Shown here piece by piece: positions 2,127-29,628 of a stretch of DNA of 33,490 bases. The notes under the pieces are model-generated. The model ran no database searches and had not been told where the DNA came from. It was given only the letters and a program-made list of their open reading frames with translations. The stretch is from Planctomycetota bacterium (lineage in GTDB: Bacteria; Planctomycetota; Planctomycetia; Pirellulales; Thermoguttaceae): contig JAKPGL010000175.1 of NCBI GenBank assembly GCA_029550925.1, positions 1 to 33,490 of the forward strand. Reading direction: 5' to 3'. Position numbers and translations under genes: made by a program. The stretch's first letter is position 1. Every line of letters starts with the position of its first letter.

Positions 2127-2320
2127 GTAACATTTTAGCCGAATGCAGTACCTTGTCATTCCCGCTCTAGCGGGAATCCAGGGTCCTAGGAGGCGGCTAC
2201 GTTCTCGTTCCTCCCAAGGAGCGGCAGCAAGAAGCCTGGATTGGGCGCTTGCGCGGGAATGACAATCCTGGGTAAACTTCGCCCTAAAAATACCTCCTTT
2301 GCATTCGGCTGAAATGTTAC
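2127..2320. mobile_element. MITE-like element, copy 1 (194 bp, 21-bp terminal inverted repeats)
   Basis: The left end (2127-2147, beginning GTAACATTTTAGCC) and the right end (2300-2320) are inverted repeats with one mismatch in 21. Inside the left end is a perfect ATTCCC-N8-GGGAAT palindrome (2158-2177). Then comes a 66-bp centre (2176-2241) and a degenerate second palindrome near 2246-2262. A second copy at 6302-6474 has the same ends in the same order but the centre reversed. It encodes no protein, so it would need a transposase or RAYT-like enzyme from elsewhere. No clear target-site duplication was seen. Confidence 0.75.
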
Positions 2321-2448
2321 CAGTTTTTTTAGCTTTTTGGGTTTCCCGCGGATGCGGACAAGTCTGGGTTGCCGGGTGCGCGGGAAGGAGATTTCTGGAT
2401 TCCTGCCTGGGAGGAATGGTAGATTCCTCCATCCAGTTAAAATGCTAC
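2321..2448. repeat. Decayed relative of the MITE-like element
   Basis: This stretch, directly right of copy 1, keeps scattered similarity to it: a TTTCCCGCGGATGCGG block, GTGCGCGGGAAGG, and a terminal CAGTTAAAATGCTAC (2434-2448) resembling the right end of the element. It reads as an older, eroded tandem insertion. The remaining bases to 2538 are AT-rich and probably hold the promoter of the next gene, but no convincing hexamer pair was seen. Confidence 0.4.
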
Positions 2449-2538
2449 AAAGGGGGGCTCTGTTCCCTCCAAGGAAAGAGGCATGGCCTTGTGTGGCCAG
2501 GCTTTCTAGATTTTACTTATTTTGTGTATATTGCCTAA

Positions 2539-3519
2539 ATGAAACCAACATGGCCTACCACCCGTAAATGGCTCCTGGCACTGGCCAAACTCCTGGTGGT
2601 CCTGCTGGTCTTGTGGTTTGTTCGCAAAACCTTGCAGGAAGGTTGGCAAGAGCTCCAGCAAGGCCATTGGCGATTGGAGTGGGGTTGGCTTATACTCTCT
2701 GGTGGGGTTTATCTGGTGGGGTTGCTCGGTCCAGCCCTGTTTTGGCACTACGTGCTCCGCCGCTTGGGCCAAAACCCGCATCTTCTCGAAAGTCTTCGGG
2801 CCTACTATATCAGCCATCTGGGCAAGTACGTGCCTGGCAAAGCGATGGTCATTGTGCTGCGGGCCGGTCTGATTTCCGGCCAACGGGTCCATTTAGGACT
2901 GGCCGCGGTCAGCACCTTTATCGAAACGCTGACCATGATGGCCGTCGGGGCGTTTATCTCATTGGCCATTTTGCTGGCCCAGTTTCGCGATCATCCCTGG
3001 CTGATGCTTTTGTCGCTAGGGCTGATGGTCGTTTCGGGCCTGCCGACCTTGCCTTCGGTGGTGCGACTGGCCCTGCGTTGGTTCCGCTGGCCGGAAAATG
3101 GGGGCACGATCTTGGAAACCGCCGACCGATACCGCCTACCGACCATGCTGCTGGGATGGGCATATATGGCGGTTTGTTGGTTGGTCTTGGGGCTGAGTTT
3201 AGGCTGTTGTCTGGCCGGAATGGGGGTACAGGTCCATTGGGGCAATACGGAGCAGTGGGCACTCTGGACCGCCACGGCGGCCTTGGCTGTGGTGGCCGGG
3301 TTTGTCTCTTTGGTGCCCGGCGGCATCATGGTCCGGGAAGCGGTGTTGTTGAGTCTGTTGGCCCCCCAGGTGGGCAAAGCCGCCGCCTTGGCCAGTGCGG
3401 TGCTTTTGCGCCTGGTCTGGCTAGTGGCAGAATTGGCAATATCGGCTATCCTATACGGAAGTTATTGGAGCATTCTCCAAAGGTCTCCCGGGCAGTGCGA
3501 TCCCCGGAGCCAGCGTTGA
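2539..3519 (+). CDS. Flippase-like integral membrane protein (LPG-synthase transmembrane family)
   Basis: 326 residues with about eight hydrophobic helices, beginning with a helix at 11-28 (LLALAKLLVVLLVLWFVRKTL) typical of the lysylphosphatidylglycerol-synthase transmembrane / UPF0104 family. The segment YYISHLGKYVPGK (about 90-102) is a family hallmark, as is the late LVPGGIMVREAVLL. It has no synthetase domain, so it is the stand-alone membrane half, which in known relatives is linked to lipid or lipid-linked sugar translocation. No clear Shine-Dalgarno sequence precedes the ATG. It lies 36 bases ahead of a GT2 glycosyltransferase and likely starts a three-gene envelope operon. Confidence 0.85.
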   Translation: MKPTWPTTRKWLLALAKLLVVLLVLWFVRKTLQEGWQELQQGHWRLEWGWLILSGGVYLVGLLGPALFWHYVLRRLGQNPHLLESLRAYYISHLGKYVPGKAMVIVLRAGLISGQRVHLGLAAVSTFIETLTMMAVGAFISLAILLAQFRDHPWLMLLSLGLMVVSGLPTLPSVVRLALRWFRWPENGGTILETADRYRLPTMLLGWAYMAVCWLVLGLSLGCCLAGMGVQVHWGNTEQWALWTATAALAVVAGFVSLVPGGIMVREAVLLSLLAPQVGKAAALASAVLLRLVWLVAELAISAILYGSYWSILQRSPGQCDPRSQR

Positions 3520-3555
3520 TCCTATAGCCATAAGGTACGAAAAGGACCTCGGCAG

Positions 3556-4581
3556 ATGCTTTCGGTGGTGATCCCTCTCTATAACGAAGAGCCGAGTCTG
3601 GAAAAACTCTACCAGGAATTGGTCGAGATGTCCTCAGGCCGGGGATACTCGATGGAGATCATTTTCGTCGATGACGGTTCGACGGACGGTTCCTGGGGGG
3701 TGATTCGGCGGTTGGCCGAGCGGGACCAGCGGGTCCGGGGCATCCGGTTTCGGCGGAATTTTGGCAAGGCGGCTGCTTTGGACGCTGGATTTGCCGCCGC
3801 ACAGGGGGAATACGTGATCACCCTGGACGCCGACCTGCAGGACGATCCGCACGAAATCCCCAAGCTGCTGGCCAAGCTGGAGGAAGGGTTTGATCTGGTC
3901 AGCGGCTGGAAACAGCATCGGCAAGACCCCTGGGGCAAGGTGATCGGCTCTCGGATATTCAACTATGCGGTGCGTCGGCTGACCGGCGTGCACCTGCACG
4001 ATCATAATTGCGGCATGAAGGCGTATCGACAGGAGGTGGTCCGGGAGGTGCGCTTGTATGGGGAGATGCATCGGCTAGTGCCGGTCCTGGCCGCTGCCCG
4101 CGGCTTCCGGGTAACGGAAGTCCCGGTGCACCATCGGCCTCGGCAGTTTGGTCGGTCCAAATACGGCCCTAGCCGGGCGGTTAAAGGCGTGTTGGACCTG
4201 CTGACCGTGAAGTTCTTGACCACCTATGGGTTCCGGCCGCAGCACCTGCTGGGCGGAACGGGTCTGCTGATGATGTTGTTGGGCCTGCTGGTGCTCGTGT
4301 ACTGTCTGGGCAGTTGGGCGGAGTGGTGGCCCTGGTGGCTGCTGGCCCAGTTTCCTTTGCAGCCGTTGGCCGTCGGCGGCGTGGGGCTTTTGGTCCTGGG
4401 CGGCCAGTGGATCGCCGTGGGACTGCTGGCCGAGGGGATGATCGCCCTCTACGGCAGAGGTCCTAAGCCTTATTCCATTGCCGAATACGCGCCGGCTTCT
4501 TCGCCGACGCCTGCCGCTTCGATCTTGCCTCCCGGGGCATCGGCTGCCGGAGATTCGACGCCCTTCCCGAAACCAGAGTAA
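3556..4581 (+). CDS. Family 2 glycosyltransferase, DPM1/GtrB-like, membrane-anchored
   Basis: 341 residues. A GT-A nucleotide-sugar fold begins at residue 2 (SVVIPLYNEE). It carries DDGSTDGS at 39-46 and the metal-binding D91-A-D93 within TLDADLQDDP. GRSKYG, near residue 196, is typical of polyprenyl-phosphate glycosyltransferases. Two long hydrophobic helices follow at about 230-260 and 270-300, and the tail is Pro/Ala-rich. Relatives move a hexose or similar sugar from a nucleotide donor to undecaprenyl or dolichyl phosphate on the inner membrane face. Its neighbours, a flippase-like protein upstream and a GT-C-like protein downstream, fit that lipid-linked sugar pathway. Which sugar is unknown. 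Confidence 0.92.
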   Translation: MLSVVIPLYNEEPSLEKLYQELVEMSSGRGYSMEIIFVDDGSTDGSWGVIRRLAERDQRVRGIRFRRNFGKAAALDAGFAAAQGEYVITLDADLQDDPHEIPKLLAKLEEGFDLVSGWKQHRQDPWGKVIGSRIFNYAVRRLTGVHLHDHNCGMKAYRQEVVREVRLYGEMHRLVPVLAAARGFRVTEVPVHHRPRQFGRSKYGPSRAVKGVLDLLTVKFLTTYGFRPQHLLGGTGLLMMLLGLLVLVYCLGSWAEWWPWWLLAQFPLQPLAVGGVGLLVLGGQWIAVGLLAEGMIALYGRGPKPYSIAEYAPASSPTPAASILPPGASAAGDSTPFPKPE

Positions 4582-4624
4582 AAACCAGAGGCGTAATCGT
4601 CTTTTCCGGATAGGAGAATCCCAC

Positions 4625-6247
4625 ATGAGTGTTTCGCAGTCCGTTCCCGCAGAAAGAACTTCGGCCCGCACGTTTCGCTCCGTGGCCTGGGTGGTGATTG
4701 CTGCCGGGGTGGCGGTGGTACTGGGTCGGCTCATGGCGGTCGATTCGGTCAACATGCTCCATGTTTATACGGAACGGCTCAAGGAGCTGGAAAAGGCCCG
4801 GTCGGCCCAACGCCAGGAGCTCATCGCCCAGGGGCTGGCAGGCGCCGAGTTGGAAAAGGCCCTCCAGGATTGGGAAACCCGCTACCGCCGGGAACGCCTC
4901 TCGGTGATGCGCCCCTTCCTCAGTAGCAACGACCGGAGCCGGTGGTGCACCGTCCGGGTCCTGGTGGAACCCGACCTCTGGGTCTATGACGAAGTGGAAG
5001 TGAACGGCCGAAAGGAAAGACGTTGTATCCCGTACGCCCTTGACAAGGTGATCCAGGAGCCTGGCTGGGACACGATCGACATGGTTAAGCACGACGCGGA
5101 AGGCCGGGGCGGCCTAGGCCCGCATGAAGGACATTTGTACTCTAGCAAGCCGCCCCTGCTGCCCACGCTCCTAGCCGGGCCGTATTGGATCATGTACCAC
5201 ATCCTTGGTTGGAAAATGGCAGAACACCCGTACCTGGTAGGTCGGACGCTGCTGGTGCTGGTGAATGTGATTCCGCTGGGGGTGTATTTTTGGCTATTGG
5301 CCCGGCTGGCCGACCGATTGGCCCAGCATACCTGGACCAAACTGTTTATCTTGACCGCCGGAGTGTTCGGCACATTTCTGACCACCTTTGCCGTGGTGTT
5401 GAATAATCATCTTTTGGGCGCTGTTAGTGCGATGGTGGCCCTGGCCGCCGCTGTGCCGATCTGGTTCGACCAGGACCGGCGATGGTGGCTTTTTGTACTG
5501 GCCGGGCTTTTCGGGGCCTTTGCCGTGACCAACGAACTGCCCGCGCTGGCGTTTTTCGCTCTGCTGACGTTGGGGCTTCTGTGGAAGGCGCCGGTGCGCA
5601 CGGGTGTCTATTATGTACCGCCTGTTCTGGTGGTCTTGGCCGCCATGCTGGGGACCAACTGGATTGCCCACGGCACGCCCATCCCGCCCTACGCCCGCCG
5701 TCATGCGGTGGAGAAAGAAGAAAACTGGTACGACTATGAATATACCGTACGCCGGGGCGACAAGGTCATTGTGCGGGAAAGCTACTGGCGCAATCCGCAG
5801 GGGATCGACCGCGGGGAAACAAACCGGGCCAAGTACGCCCTGCACGCCCTGGTCGGCCATCATGGGGTCTTTTCGCTCACGCCGATTTGGCTGCTGGCGG
5901 CCGTGGGGCTTGTCATGGGCCTGCTTCGACCGCCGGTGGAAGGGTTCCGAGGTCTGGCCGGGGCGGTGCTCCTGGCTTCTCTGGCCGCTCTGGTCTTTTA
6001 CATCGGGATTGTCAAGGAGCTGAACTACGGCGGCCAGGCCTGCGGGTTCCGATGGATGTTCTGGTTTGCGCCGCTTTGGCTGGTGGGGATGATCCCGGCC
6101 GTAGATTGGCTGGCCCAGCGCCGCTGGGGCCGACTGCTTGCCCTGGTGCTCCTAGCCGTGTCCGTTGCCTCGGCCGCCTACCCCACCTGGAACCCCTGGA
6201 CCCAGCCCTGGCTCTACCAGTGGATGGAACACCTCGGCTGGGTGTAA
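4625..6247 (+). CDS. Polytopic membrane protein, GT-C (GT39-like) glycosyltransferase candidate
   Basis: 540 residues from ATG 4625, which follows AGGAG at good spacing. The frame is open further upstream, but that would overlap the previous gene. An N-terminal transmembrane helix (about 20-40) is followed by a large soluble loop with an EKARSAQRQE coiled stretch. Then comes the segment HLYSSKPPLLPTLLAGP, a pattern common before the second helix of GT-C enzymes, and about nine further hydrophobic helices. A periplasmic-type loop rich in charged and Tyr residues lies at about 360-400. In GT-C families such proteins take sugars from polyprenyl phosphate outside the membrane. Together with the two preceding genes, 36 and 43 bases apart, this suggests a cell-surface glycosylation operon. 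The enzyme assignment is inference. Confidence 0.75.
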   Translation: MSVSQSVPAERTSARTFRSVAWVVIAAGVAVVLGRLMAVDSVNMLHVYTERLKELEKARSAQRQELIAQGLAGAELEKALQDWETRYRRERLSVMRPFLSSNDRSRWCTVRVLVEPDLWVYDEVEVNGRKERRCIPYALDKVIQEPGWDTIDMVKHDAEGRGGLGPHEGHLYSSKPPLLPTLLAGPYWIMYHILGWKMAEHPYLVGRTLLVLVNVIPLGVYFWLLARLADRLAQHTWTKLFILTAGVFGTFLTTFAVVLNNHLLGAVSAMVALAAAVPIWFDQDRRWWLFVLAGLFGAFAVTNELPALAFFALLTLGLLWKAPVRTGVYYVPPVLVVLAAMLGTNWIAHGTPIPPYARRHAVEKEENWYDYEYTVRRGDKVIVRESYWRNPQGIDRGETNRAKYALHALVGHHGVFSLTPIWLLAAVGLVMGLLRPPVEGFRGLAGAVLLASLAALVFYIGIVKELNYGGQACGFRWMFWFAPLWLVGMIPAVDWLAQRRWGRLLALVLLAVSVASAAYPTWNPWTQPWLYQWMEHLGWV

Positions 6248-6301
6248 AATGTTTCTGGAACCAGAGGTTTTTCGAGATTCACTCTGATATATTGAATCTT
6301 G

Positions 6302-6474
6302 GTAACATTTTAGCCGAATGCAGTACTTTGTCATTCCCGCGCAAGCGGGAATCTAGGCTTCTTGCAGCCGCTACTTGGGAGGAATAACAACGTAGCCGCC
6401 TCATAGGACCTGGGATAATCCCAGGCAAATTTCGTCCTAAAAGAAGCCTCCTTTGCATTCGGCTAAAATGCTAC
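6302..6474. mobile_element. MITE-like element, copy 2 (173 bp) with inverted centre
   Basis: The left 51 bases match copy 1 (2127-2177) at 47 positions, including the terminal repeat and a perfect ATTCCC-N8-GGGAAT palindrome (6333-6352). The right end (6454-6474) is the inverted repeat of the left with one mismatch. The 66-bp centre, 6351-6416, matches the reverse complement of 2176-2241 at about 57 positions, so only the middle is flipped. Copy 2 also lacks about 22 bp, including the second palindrome of copy 1. It lies 54 bases after the stop of the membrane protein gene. Confidence 0.75.
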
Positions 6475-6945
6475 AAACCGGGAAAGGACGGTGATCCGGG
6501 CCTTCGGGGATTTTAGCTGGCCTCGGCAAAGCCGAGGCCGGCCTCTCGACGGCCAGGGGAGAGGCGAAGGAGTTGAGCCACTTTGGCGGTTTGCCCGGCC
6601 TCCGGCATGGGCCTCTGGGATGTGTAGATACCAATGTCCGCCGGGGGAGGGCAGAAAATCCGAAACCTTTCTCTTGGGCCGGTGAGATGCCCGAAAAGTT
6701 TATTCTGGAGTCTTGCAAAATGGGTTTGTTCAGTAGTTTGCACACTACGCACCCGCCTCAAAAATTCCGAGTACCCTTTCAACCGAATGAAGCAACCCCC
6801 CGGCAGCGCGGACCTCTGGTGCGCACTGCTAGGGGGGGCCTCTGGCCCGCCCCGGTTCGCTACCTTTCGGAACAAAGGGGGAACTCAACACTTCTCCATT
6901 CGGCTGCATGGTTGCCTATTTTGTAAACAGAAAGGGAATATTCAA
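6475..6945. repeat. Repeat graveyard upstream of the DUF433 gene
   Basis: No gene is supported here. Recognisable pieces are as follows. A GGCCTCGGC-AAA-GCCGAGGCC hairpin spans about 6520-6540. A 27-bp sequence at 6540-6566 recurs exactly inverted at 29310-29336. 6619-6636 (GATGTGTAGATACCAATG) recurs at 23284-23301. 6712-6733 is like the left part of the 122-bp element at 27223. 6771-6801 is like 2038-2069. A CCATTCGGCTGCATGGTTGCC end near 6896-6916 recalls the MITE-like right terminus. The spacer appears to have collected several small elements in succession. Confidence 0.6.
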
Positions 6946-7179
6946 ATGTTAGAGCGAATCTCGGTCAATCCGAACATTCATTTCGGCAAGCCTTGTGTGG
7001 CAGGCACCCGAATACCGGTCGAAAACGTCCTGGAACTACTCCGGGAGGGGCTGTCGTTTGAGCAGATCATCCAAGATTACTATCCGGAGCTCCAGGTAGA
7101 GGACATCCGTACATGTATTCAGTATGCGATTGCCTTAATCGAGGCTGAGGAAATTCACCTTGCGGTAGAACCGAAATGA
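6946..7179 (+). CDS. DUF433 family protein, probable antitoxin
   Basis: 77 residues from ATG 6946, preceded by AAAGGGA. The frame is open upstream, but that part is repeat-derived sequence. The whole protein fits DUF433: ISVNPNIHFGKPCVAGTRIPVENVLELLREGLS, then the helical ..EQIIQDYYPELQVEDIRTCIQYA.., which resembles the winged-helix part of VapB-like antitoxins. The stop overlaps the next start by four bases (ATGA), which indicates translational coupling. With the DUF5615 PIN-like partner it forms a common but poorly characterised toxin-antitoxin-like pair. It probably neutralises the partner and may repress the pair's own transcription (inference). Confidence 0.88.
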   Translation: MLERISVNPNIHFGKPCVAGTRIPVENVLELLREGLSFEQIIQDYYPELQVEDIRTCIQYAIALIEAEEIHLAVEPK

Positions 7180-7535
7180 AATTCTTGCTCGACCAGGATG
7201 TATATCAGGTTACGGCTCGGTGGCTTCGGGATCACGGCCACGATGTGGTAACGGCCACTCAGATGGGCCTTTCCCAGGCCTCGGATGAGGAATTGCTCCG
7301 AACAGCTCAGGCGCAAGGCCGGATATTCGTAACCCGCGATAGAGACTTCGGGCATCTGGTCTTTGTCAAAGGAATCCGGGTCGGTGTGTTTTATCTACGG
7401 ATGTTGCCCTCGACGCAAGAGGCCGTTCATCGCCAACTTGACCGTATATTGAACAGCTATTCTGAAGAAGAAATCAATGGGAGCTTCTTTGTGGTCAGTG
7501 CTCAGGGATATAGGAAAAGGAAAATTCATCCCTAG
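7176..7535 (+). CDS. DUF5615 PIN-like protein, probable toxin nuclease
   Basis: 119 residues. MKFLLDQDVYQVTARWLRDHGHDVVTA at the start and GRIFVTRDRDFGHLVFV in the middle are the DUF5615/Mut7-C PIN-like signature. Asp6 and Asp8, the Asp-Glu-Glu of SDEELLRTA, and the Asp residues of TRDRDFG are the candidate metal-binding acidic cluster of a PIN-type ribonuclease. The start overlaps the DUF433 stop by four bases. No export signal is present, so it is cytosolic. It would act as an RNA-cleaving toxin held by DUF433. This pairing is known, but activity has not been shown for this protein. Confidence 0.88.
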   Translation: MKFLLDQDVYQVTARWLRDHGHDVVTATQMGLSQASDEELLRTAQAQGRIFVTRDRDFGHLVFVKGIRVGVFYLRMLPSTQEAVHRQLDRILNSYSEEEINGSFFVVSAQGYRKRKIHP

Positions 7536-12461: not shown

Positions 12462-12540
12462 CGTCGTTCCCGCGCAAGCGGGAATCCAGAAATACTGGTC
12501 CACACCAAGAGGCGCTCCGCTTTGCGCAGGATGATAATAG
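12462..12540. repeat. Degenerate palindromic repeat related to the MITE-like element core
   Basis: 12466-12485 is a GTTCCC-N8-GGGAAT palindrome, one base off the ATTCCC-N8-GGGAAT form, followed by ATCCAG as in copy 1. Near 12522-12540 TTTGCGCAGGATGATAAT resembles the second, inverted palindrome of copy 1. Neither 21-bp terminal repeat is present. It lies between the PfkB and ThpR genes. Confidence 0.5.
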
Positions 12541-29514: not shown

Positions 29515-29628
29515 TTGTCATTCCCGCGTAAGCGGCAGTCCAGTGTTTACAGACAGTGTATTTACCAATGGGATTCCCGCTTTCGCTGGGATGACAAGAG
29601 AGGATTTTCCATTCGGCTAAAAAGTTCC
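29515..29628. repeat. Modular relative of the MITE-like element lacking the left end
   Basis: TTGTCATTCCCGCGTAAGCGG (split palindrome) at the left and GATTCCCGCTTTCGCTGGGATGACAA near 29572-29597 form a long inverted pair. The right end CCATTCGGCTAAAAAGTTCC resembles the right terminal repeat of copies 1 and 2. The centre is unrelated to theirs. It lies 41 bases before the next gene and may supply part of its leader. Confidence 0.55.

Follow-up and report, generated by a model that had tools for sequence, protein, structure and literature searches.

Two short repeats in a stretch of planctomycete DNA raise the question of how the inside of an element could be turned round while its ends stayed in place. 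The stretch, hereafter the window, is 33,490 nucleotides long and forms contig C96 (JAKPGL010000175.1) of a 233-contig draft genome (4.9 Mb, 97.5% complete) from a Thermoguttaceae-like planctomycete; the nearest named relatives of the glycosyltransferase encoded at 3556-4581 are found in metagenome-assembled genomes of Thermoguttaceae (90% and 86% identity). Copy 1 (2127-2320, 194 bp) and copy 2 (6302-6474, 173 bp), both on the forward strand, had been described in an earlier note as resembling miniature inverted-repeat transposable elements (MITEs) with the same ends and a 66-bp centre in opposite orientations. We judge it probable that both are IS66-type MITEs carrying a nested dimer of repetitive extragenic palindromes (REPs) of the CGTC-1 class, and that the spacer between these REPs has been inverted recurrently, rarely and in place.

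Two copies with opposed centres

The terminal inverted repeats (TIRs) are common to both copies, as the earlier note had stated, with 20 of 21 positions matched in each (2127-2147 and 6302-6322 on the forward strand; 2300-2320 and 6454-6474 on the reverse strand). The left arms are alike in direct order, at 48 equal bases of 51 by our recount instead of the 47 first given. The centre matches only after reverse complementing, as had been claimed: positions 2176-2241 agree with the reverse complement of 6351-6416 at 57 of 66 bases and with the direct sequence at 27 of 66. The reversed match is far beyond chance, since the best 66-base match reached 32 to 36 of 66 in 20 shuffled windows and 32 of 66 elsewhere in the real window. 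A flip of the whole element is ruled out, because the window copies keep their arm order and spacer and arms vary separately in the family.

The two unlike arms (A and B) enclose what is, by its sequence, a head-to-head CGTC-1 REP dimer of the dRS3 type: TGTC-ATTCCCGC-NNNN-GCGGGAAT-CCAG, a 54-bp spacer and then the inverted counterpart. According to the accessible text of PMC3733652, CGTC-1 REPs have a CGTC or TGTC tag, an 8-bp stem, a 4-nt loop and a CCA tail, occur mostly as head-to-head dimers with the tags outside, and are represented in Neisseria by dRS3, for which the available part of PMC3898611 gives the palindrome ATTCCC(N8)GGGAAT. The left REP of copy 1 (2154-2181, forward strand) has all of these features, with tag TGTC, stem ATTCCCGC, loop TCTA, stem GCGGGAAT and tail CCAG, the stem pair spanning 2158-2177 in our palindrome search. 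That of copy 2 (6329-6356, forward strand; TGTC ATTCCCGC GCAA GCGGGAAT CTAG, with the palindrome at 6333-6352) ends in CTA, not CCA. The spacer of copy 2 (6357-6409, reverse strand) is the reverse complement of that of copy 1 (2182-2235, forward strand). The second, inverted REP is present in copy 1 (2236-2264, reverse strand) with a diverged inner half, which makes the pair a heterodimer; in copy 2 it is a remnant (6410-6425), mostly deleted when judged against full-length copies of the family. The view that palindromes flank both centres therefore holds for copy 1, where the inversion does end in them, and fails for copy 2. Single strands of copies 1 and 2 fold far better than shuffled sequences (z -8.2 and -8.8).

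Judged from its GTAA ends, its 8-bp target site duplications (TSDs) and an identical end beside an IS66 transposase frame, the element is a non-autonomous IS66-type MITE of about 194 bp: short, bounded by TIRs and present in many copies. The ends read GTAAC...GTTAC, and the accessible parts of PMC3281130 and PMC11946415 give 8-bp direct repeats and ends starting with GTAA as features of IS66. Copy 1 lies between perfect 8-bp duplications (CAGTTTTT, 2119-2126 and 2321-2328); no duplication was seen around copy 2 (6294-6301 compared with 6475-6482). Among paired elements whose ends are G/C, 34 of 98 have a perfect 8-bp TSD (a few pairs that overlap enter this count twice), as against 0.2 expected from shuffled pairings; lengths of 5, 6, 7 and 10 bp gave none and 9 bp gave one. 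On G000:C224, an end identical to the left TIR of copy 1 (21 of 21 bases, L234:932) has its outer base 65 bp from the start of an IS66 transposase frame (PF03050, E 6.7e-26), inside which the contig ends. A further IS66 piece opens contig C232 and has a right end with three mismatches. Contig ends truncate both of these pieces, no intact copy was seen, and zf-IS66 stayed below its cut-off. The earlier note had overlooked both the IS66-type identity of the MITE and the nested CGTC-1/dRS3 REP pair.

At up to three mismatches, the TIR has 287 matches in the genome (149 forward, 138 reverse), and its reversed control has 3 (2 and 1); the left arm has 95 matches and the spacer 89, with controls at 0. 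In the loci around the matches, ends could be paired into 117 elements, including a few that overlap. The TIR places followed up were the first 100 of the 287, so that elements with neither a left-arm nor a spacer match are under-counted, and the initial copy searches scored 40 of 328 and 40 of 366 candidates. At locus L155, from a relative, the two neighbouring genes of copy 1 lie 325 bp apart with nothing matching the element between them; this contig stops before the place of copy 2. At L154, likewise from a relative and not syntenic upstream of copy 1, the genes on either side of the place of copy 2 are present and the element is absent.

Spacer orientation across the family

Both orientations of the spacer occur genome-wide with the arms unchanged. 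Relative to arm A, 57 of the 70 copies with both arms carry the spacer as copy 2 does (the majority or 'anti' orientation), 10 as copy 1 does (the minority or 'parallel' orientation) and 3 in neither way. Counted from the 95 left arms, 42 spacers read as in copy 2 and 10 as in copy 1, with no spacer match for the other 43. In a minority of copies, the spacer and the inner REP halves are inverted and the arms are in place. These counts bear out the earlier claim that only the inside had turned: the orientation of the centre is not always coupled to that of the arms, and a lone centre, with neither arm nor terminal repeat, was clearly found once among 105 (L064). L135 and L152 were also scored as armless, with a degraded terminal repeat or a position near a contig end.

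We named the arm pairs by reading the spacer in one fixed direction and assigning the arm on each side. Both window copies read A-spacer-B along the forward strand, so that in this spacer-based naming copy 1 is A-B and copy 2 is B-A. The 70 copies divide into B-A (49), C-A (8), A-B (7), A-C (3), B-C (2) and A-A (1). For another 33 of the 103 spacers no arm was scored on at least one side, and these fall outside the 70; L089 and L112, which differ from the pattern at 8 positions, do not figure in the marker table, the arm-pair count or the two smaller trees described below, but a tree of 105 rows retains them. If arms were swapped freely, 14.8 copies would be expected to have the same arm on both sides; the single case seen was matched by 0 of 20,000 shuffles, which ignore the relatedness of the copies. 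This deficit favours inversion in place and rules out free arm shuffling as the main cause.

The limits of the turned block could be narrowed with short markers in the inner REP halves, scoring the first marker found. On the two sides of the spacer, labelled ell and rho, CTCAAT is confined to the ell side (51 of 103, against 0 of 103 on rho) and CCCAAT to the rho side (63 of 103, against 0 of 103 on ell). Arms A, B and C are each found on both sides, so these markers travel with the spacer and not with the arm, which places the break in the outer REP halves (TGTCATTCCCGC...). For copy 1, we infer an inverted block of at least about 2170-2249, made up of the inner REP halves and the spacer, and at most 2154-2264. 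When copy 1 is aligned locally with the reverse of copy 2, the match likewise runs past the 66 bp into the right stem. The inverted block is thus larger than the 66-bp centre first described. Many REPs within the MITE are degenerate: an intact inner half of the GGGAAT type is found on the ell side of 39 and the rho side of 27 of the 103 spacers.

The element is also modular, as the earlier note had offered as one of two descriptions. A third arm type, C, replaces A or B in 13 of 70 copies, and other spacer types occupy the same frame. The other description, an invertible element, holds for past flips, which appear to have more than one origin, and finds no support for inversion in the present day.

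Number of inversions and their route

Support for more than one origin of the flip comes from two short trees. On the spacer tree, which includes every two-arm copy except the A-A one (69 of 70), 8 changes are required to explain the 10 flipped copies (7-9 across bootstraps, and about 9.5 on average after shuffling), and a single clade of flipped copies is rejected by the approximately unbiased (AU) test (p-AU 0.020). On the arms tree (53 of the 56 A/B copies, three having arms too short), 6 changes are required for 7 flipped copies (5-6 across bootstraps, and 6.7 on average after shuffling), and a single clade is again rejected (p-AU 0.006). Moreover, the nearest other spacer is unflipped or of a B-C copy in 7 of 7 flipped A-B copies, L035 being uninformative on account of an indel in this ungapped comparison. 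A single ancestral flip, whose product then spread by transposition, would account for the clustering of the flipped label on the 105-row spacer tree, where 9 changes compare with 14.2 after shuffling and 0 of 500 shuffles were as low. It would also account for the close spacers of L041 and L051, both flipped, and L152, whose arms could not be assigned (0-1 bases apart), and for those of L040 and L045 (4 bases from the nearest). The clustering does imply that part of the flipped set consists of copies of one flip. As the source of all flipped copies, however, one flip is rejected by the spacer and arms trees, with their few columns as a caveat, and we hold it to be highly improbable. Several flips, some of which were then copied, would be a fair statement of the history.

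Could the flipped copies be artefacts, in which assembly joined the wrong halves across a 194-bp repeat? The draft is in 233 contigs, several copies lie at contig ends, and the spacers of L033, L040, L041, L045 and L051 are only 0-4 bases from that of another copy. Those of L031, L032, L034, L037 and L050, by contrast, differ at 7-11 of 79 bases from the nearest other, and among the 7 flipped elements with G/C ends three have perfect TSDs and two more have 7 of 8 bases. For copies with private spacers and target duplications a chimera was judged unlikely, and as a general explanation chimeras seem to us the least credible of those considered.

Exchange of modules deserves more weight, although we still think it unlikely as the main process. 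Here, crossing-over or gene conversion at the shared REPs would swap arms and spacers, and inverted centres would be the products of double exchanges. Arm C on either side in 13 of 70 copies and other spacer types in the same position are what such exchange would leave behind. So is the pair L062 (G000:C8) and L129 (G000:C182), which agree in their 8-bp duplication and, apart from one mismatch, in the right flank as far as C8 extends, but differ patchily in the B-side REP and the spacer, as if converted in place. A single exchange between opposed elements, on the other hand, would yield A-A and B-B copies, of which the 70 contain one, an A-A copy (L039) close to the end of its contig; such products could be hidden if symmetric elements are selected against. 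Exchange between copies seems to occur as well as inversion.

A dedicated site-specific recombinase that recognizes the REPs and switches the spacer would make this a true invertible element. The breakpoints within a conserved REP would suit such an enzyme, and so would the exact inverted identity, which is short for RecA. The same type of REP, dRS3, is targeted by the Nf1 prophage integrase in Neisseria, according to the accessible text of PMC3898611. However, a search of the whole 97.5% complete genome at E 0.001 found no serine recombinase (PF00239), IS110/Piv-type enzyme (PF02371) or Y1 transposase (PF01797), tyrosine recombinases being outside this search, and 57 to 10 is not an even mix. 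We regard a dedicated enzyme as improbable.

We therefore return to recurrent, rare inversion in place between the REPs. The inverted REPs would pair within one element and the spacer would turn at low frequency, most plausibly through template switching during replication at the hairpin or through recombination between short inverted repeats. Such a process would need no dedicated invertase, and the IS66 transposase would spread both orientation forms. The longest exact inverted match across the spacer sides is 13 bp in copy 1, and in some copies, copy 2 among them, it lies within the terminal repeat; this shortness points to template switching or cruciform-type events over ordinary RecA recombination.

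Several observations weigh against recurrent inversion. The trees are short (80 and 88 columns) with most forks open, and if only the starred branches are trusted, no more than 3 and 2 changes are required; the clustering on the 105-row tree and the restriction of the recombinase search to three families count here as well. The longest exact inverted match has a median of 10 bp in flipped (n=10) and 8 bp in unflipped copies (n=57) and is not significantly longer in the former (p 0.13). Copy 2 has lost one of its REPs, and no locus was found in both orientations among the genomes compared, one per species. Lastly, two other spacer types have no reversed copy, with 0 of 8 rows in one (one orientation unassigned) and 0 of 8 rows, or 6 distinct elements, in the other; set against the 54-bp spacer, flips in 10 of 67 and an assumed 0 of 18 do not differ significantly (Fisher p 0.11). 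Either inversion is rare or it favours the 54-bp spacer, and the numbers are too small to decide.

Related repeats, surroundings and significance

The REP and its carrier differ in their distribution. A longer REP pattern has 200 matches in this genome, 145 and 123 in two genomes of the same genus, 147 in G017, which belongs to another genus of the family, and one each in two further genomes, with no match in the other 54 of the 60 searched. The MITE end, as a 15-base pattern, has 219 matches here and 23 in G034, and the two genomes of the same genus have 5 and 3; at least one match occurs in 14 of 60 genomes, and controls gave 0 to 3. Viral contigs had no match to one exact 21-base pattern. 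Because the REP pattern is common in the same-genus genomes and in G017, the REP is probably older than the expansion of the MITE. The spacer as an older genus-wide repeat is ruled out, with no match at up to three mismatches in G001, G002, G017 or G034. In G017, L266 and L268 carry head-to-head dimers of CGTC REPs with short spacers and no MITE arms in the stretch examined. In G034, from another genus of the family, L237 and L240 are short elements with the same TIR (one mismatch) and different adjoining sequence.

Within the genome analysed here, L116 and L117 on G000:C161, about 5 kb apart, represent a duplication of the element with its flanks (93.6% identity over 374 bp). Three spacers lie near contig ends, namely L041 (C42), L152 (C230) and C218:33-61. 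The spacers of L041 and L152 are identical, and both copies match arm C in part before the contig end cuts the match off, which suggests a recent subfamily that broke the assembly.

Elsewhere in the window, REP-like palindromes outside both MITE copies lie at 12466-12485, 29520-29539 and 29573-29592; at up to three mismatches, the palindrome was seen 7 times in the window, with 0.48 expected. An Rfam scan of the window returned a tRNA gene (RF00005, 20499-20574, minus strand) and nothing else. Downstream of copy 2, a profile search placed a DUF5615/PIN-like gene at 7176-7535, behind a short open reading frame that we take to resemble a DUF433-type partner.

The element resembles the IS66 family and its MITEs, as far as the accessible descriptions go, in its GTAA ends and 8-bp repeats, and its 21-bp end recurs unchanged beside an IS66 transposase frame in the same genome. 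It departs from them in that its interior is a REP dimer and that the start GTAAGCG given in PMC11946415 is matched only to GTAA. With the CGTC-1/dRS3 dimers in the available text of PMC3733652 it shares the TGTC tag, the 8-bp stem ATTCCCGC, the 4-nt loop, the CCA tail, the outward tags and a spacer within 20-100 bp. That text also reports that head-to-head dimers tend to have conserved spacers, that the CGTC class has no known mover and that CGTC-1 dimers of H. neapolitanus likewise lie within palindromic sequence. What sets the planctomycete dimer apart is that the palindrome around it has been identified as a TSD-flanked MITE and that its spacer is found both ways round. The results of that paper list five phyla with CGTC repeats, Planctomycetes not among them, and its abstract names Planctomycetes for both super-families. 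Neisseria intergenic mosaic elements (NIMEs), in the accessible part of PMC3898611, similarly combine unlike repeat modules with dRS3-type ATTCCC(N8)GGGAAT palindromes, whereas the planctomycete modules ride on a MITE with terminal repeats and target duplications.

A parallel for the turning itself is found in plastid hairpins, where the available text of PMC6824564 describes small 'flip-flop' inversions of loops that change repeatedly. In both systems a loop within a short inverted-repeat stem occurs in both orientations and changes several times on a tree, but the plastid loops are short and sit at fixed loci, whereas the present spacer belongs to a dispersed bacterial mobile element.

Invertons are phase-variable DNA segments that lie between inverted repeats and occur in two orientations. 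The spacer resembles them in this arrangement; in contrast to them, three recombinase families were sought and none was found, and neither a promoter role nor a two-state locus is on record here. One could speculate further that head-to-head CGTC/dRS3 REP dimers are inversion cassettes whose spacer is turned repeatedly in the living cell when the two REPs pair, perhaps with the aid of a host or phage recombinase, that the MITE carries such a cassette round the genome, and that REP dimers and NIMEs of other bacteria behave in the same way. We consider this rather unlikely.

Titles and abstract openings in the open-access literature, with subscription papers outside the search, described no inverted REP spacers and no invertible MITE centre, and the word 'inversion' occurs 0 times in PMC3733652. 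The finding adds a new variation to known kinds of bacterial repeat and is not a proven genetic switch. A mobile carrier of a REP dimer whose spacer has turned in several copies constitutes a natural record of inversion at hairpins, for which the target duplications and the unlike arms serve as fixed reference points. If inversion still goes on, the element could serve as a simple system in which to study how DNA is turned by short inverted repeats when no dedicated enzyme acts, and the orientation of the spacer would be an unreliable character in such repeats.

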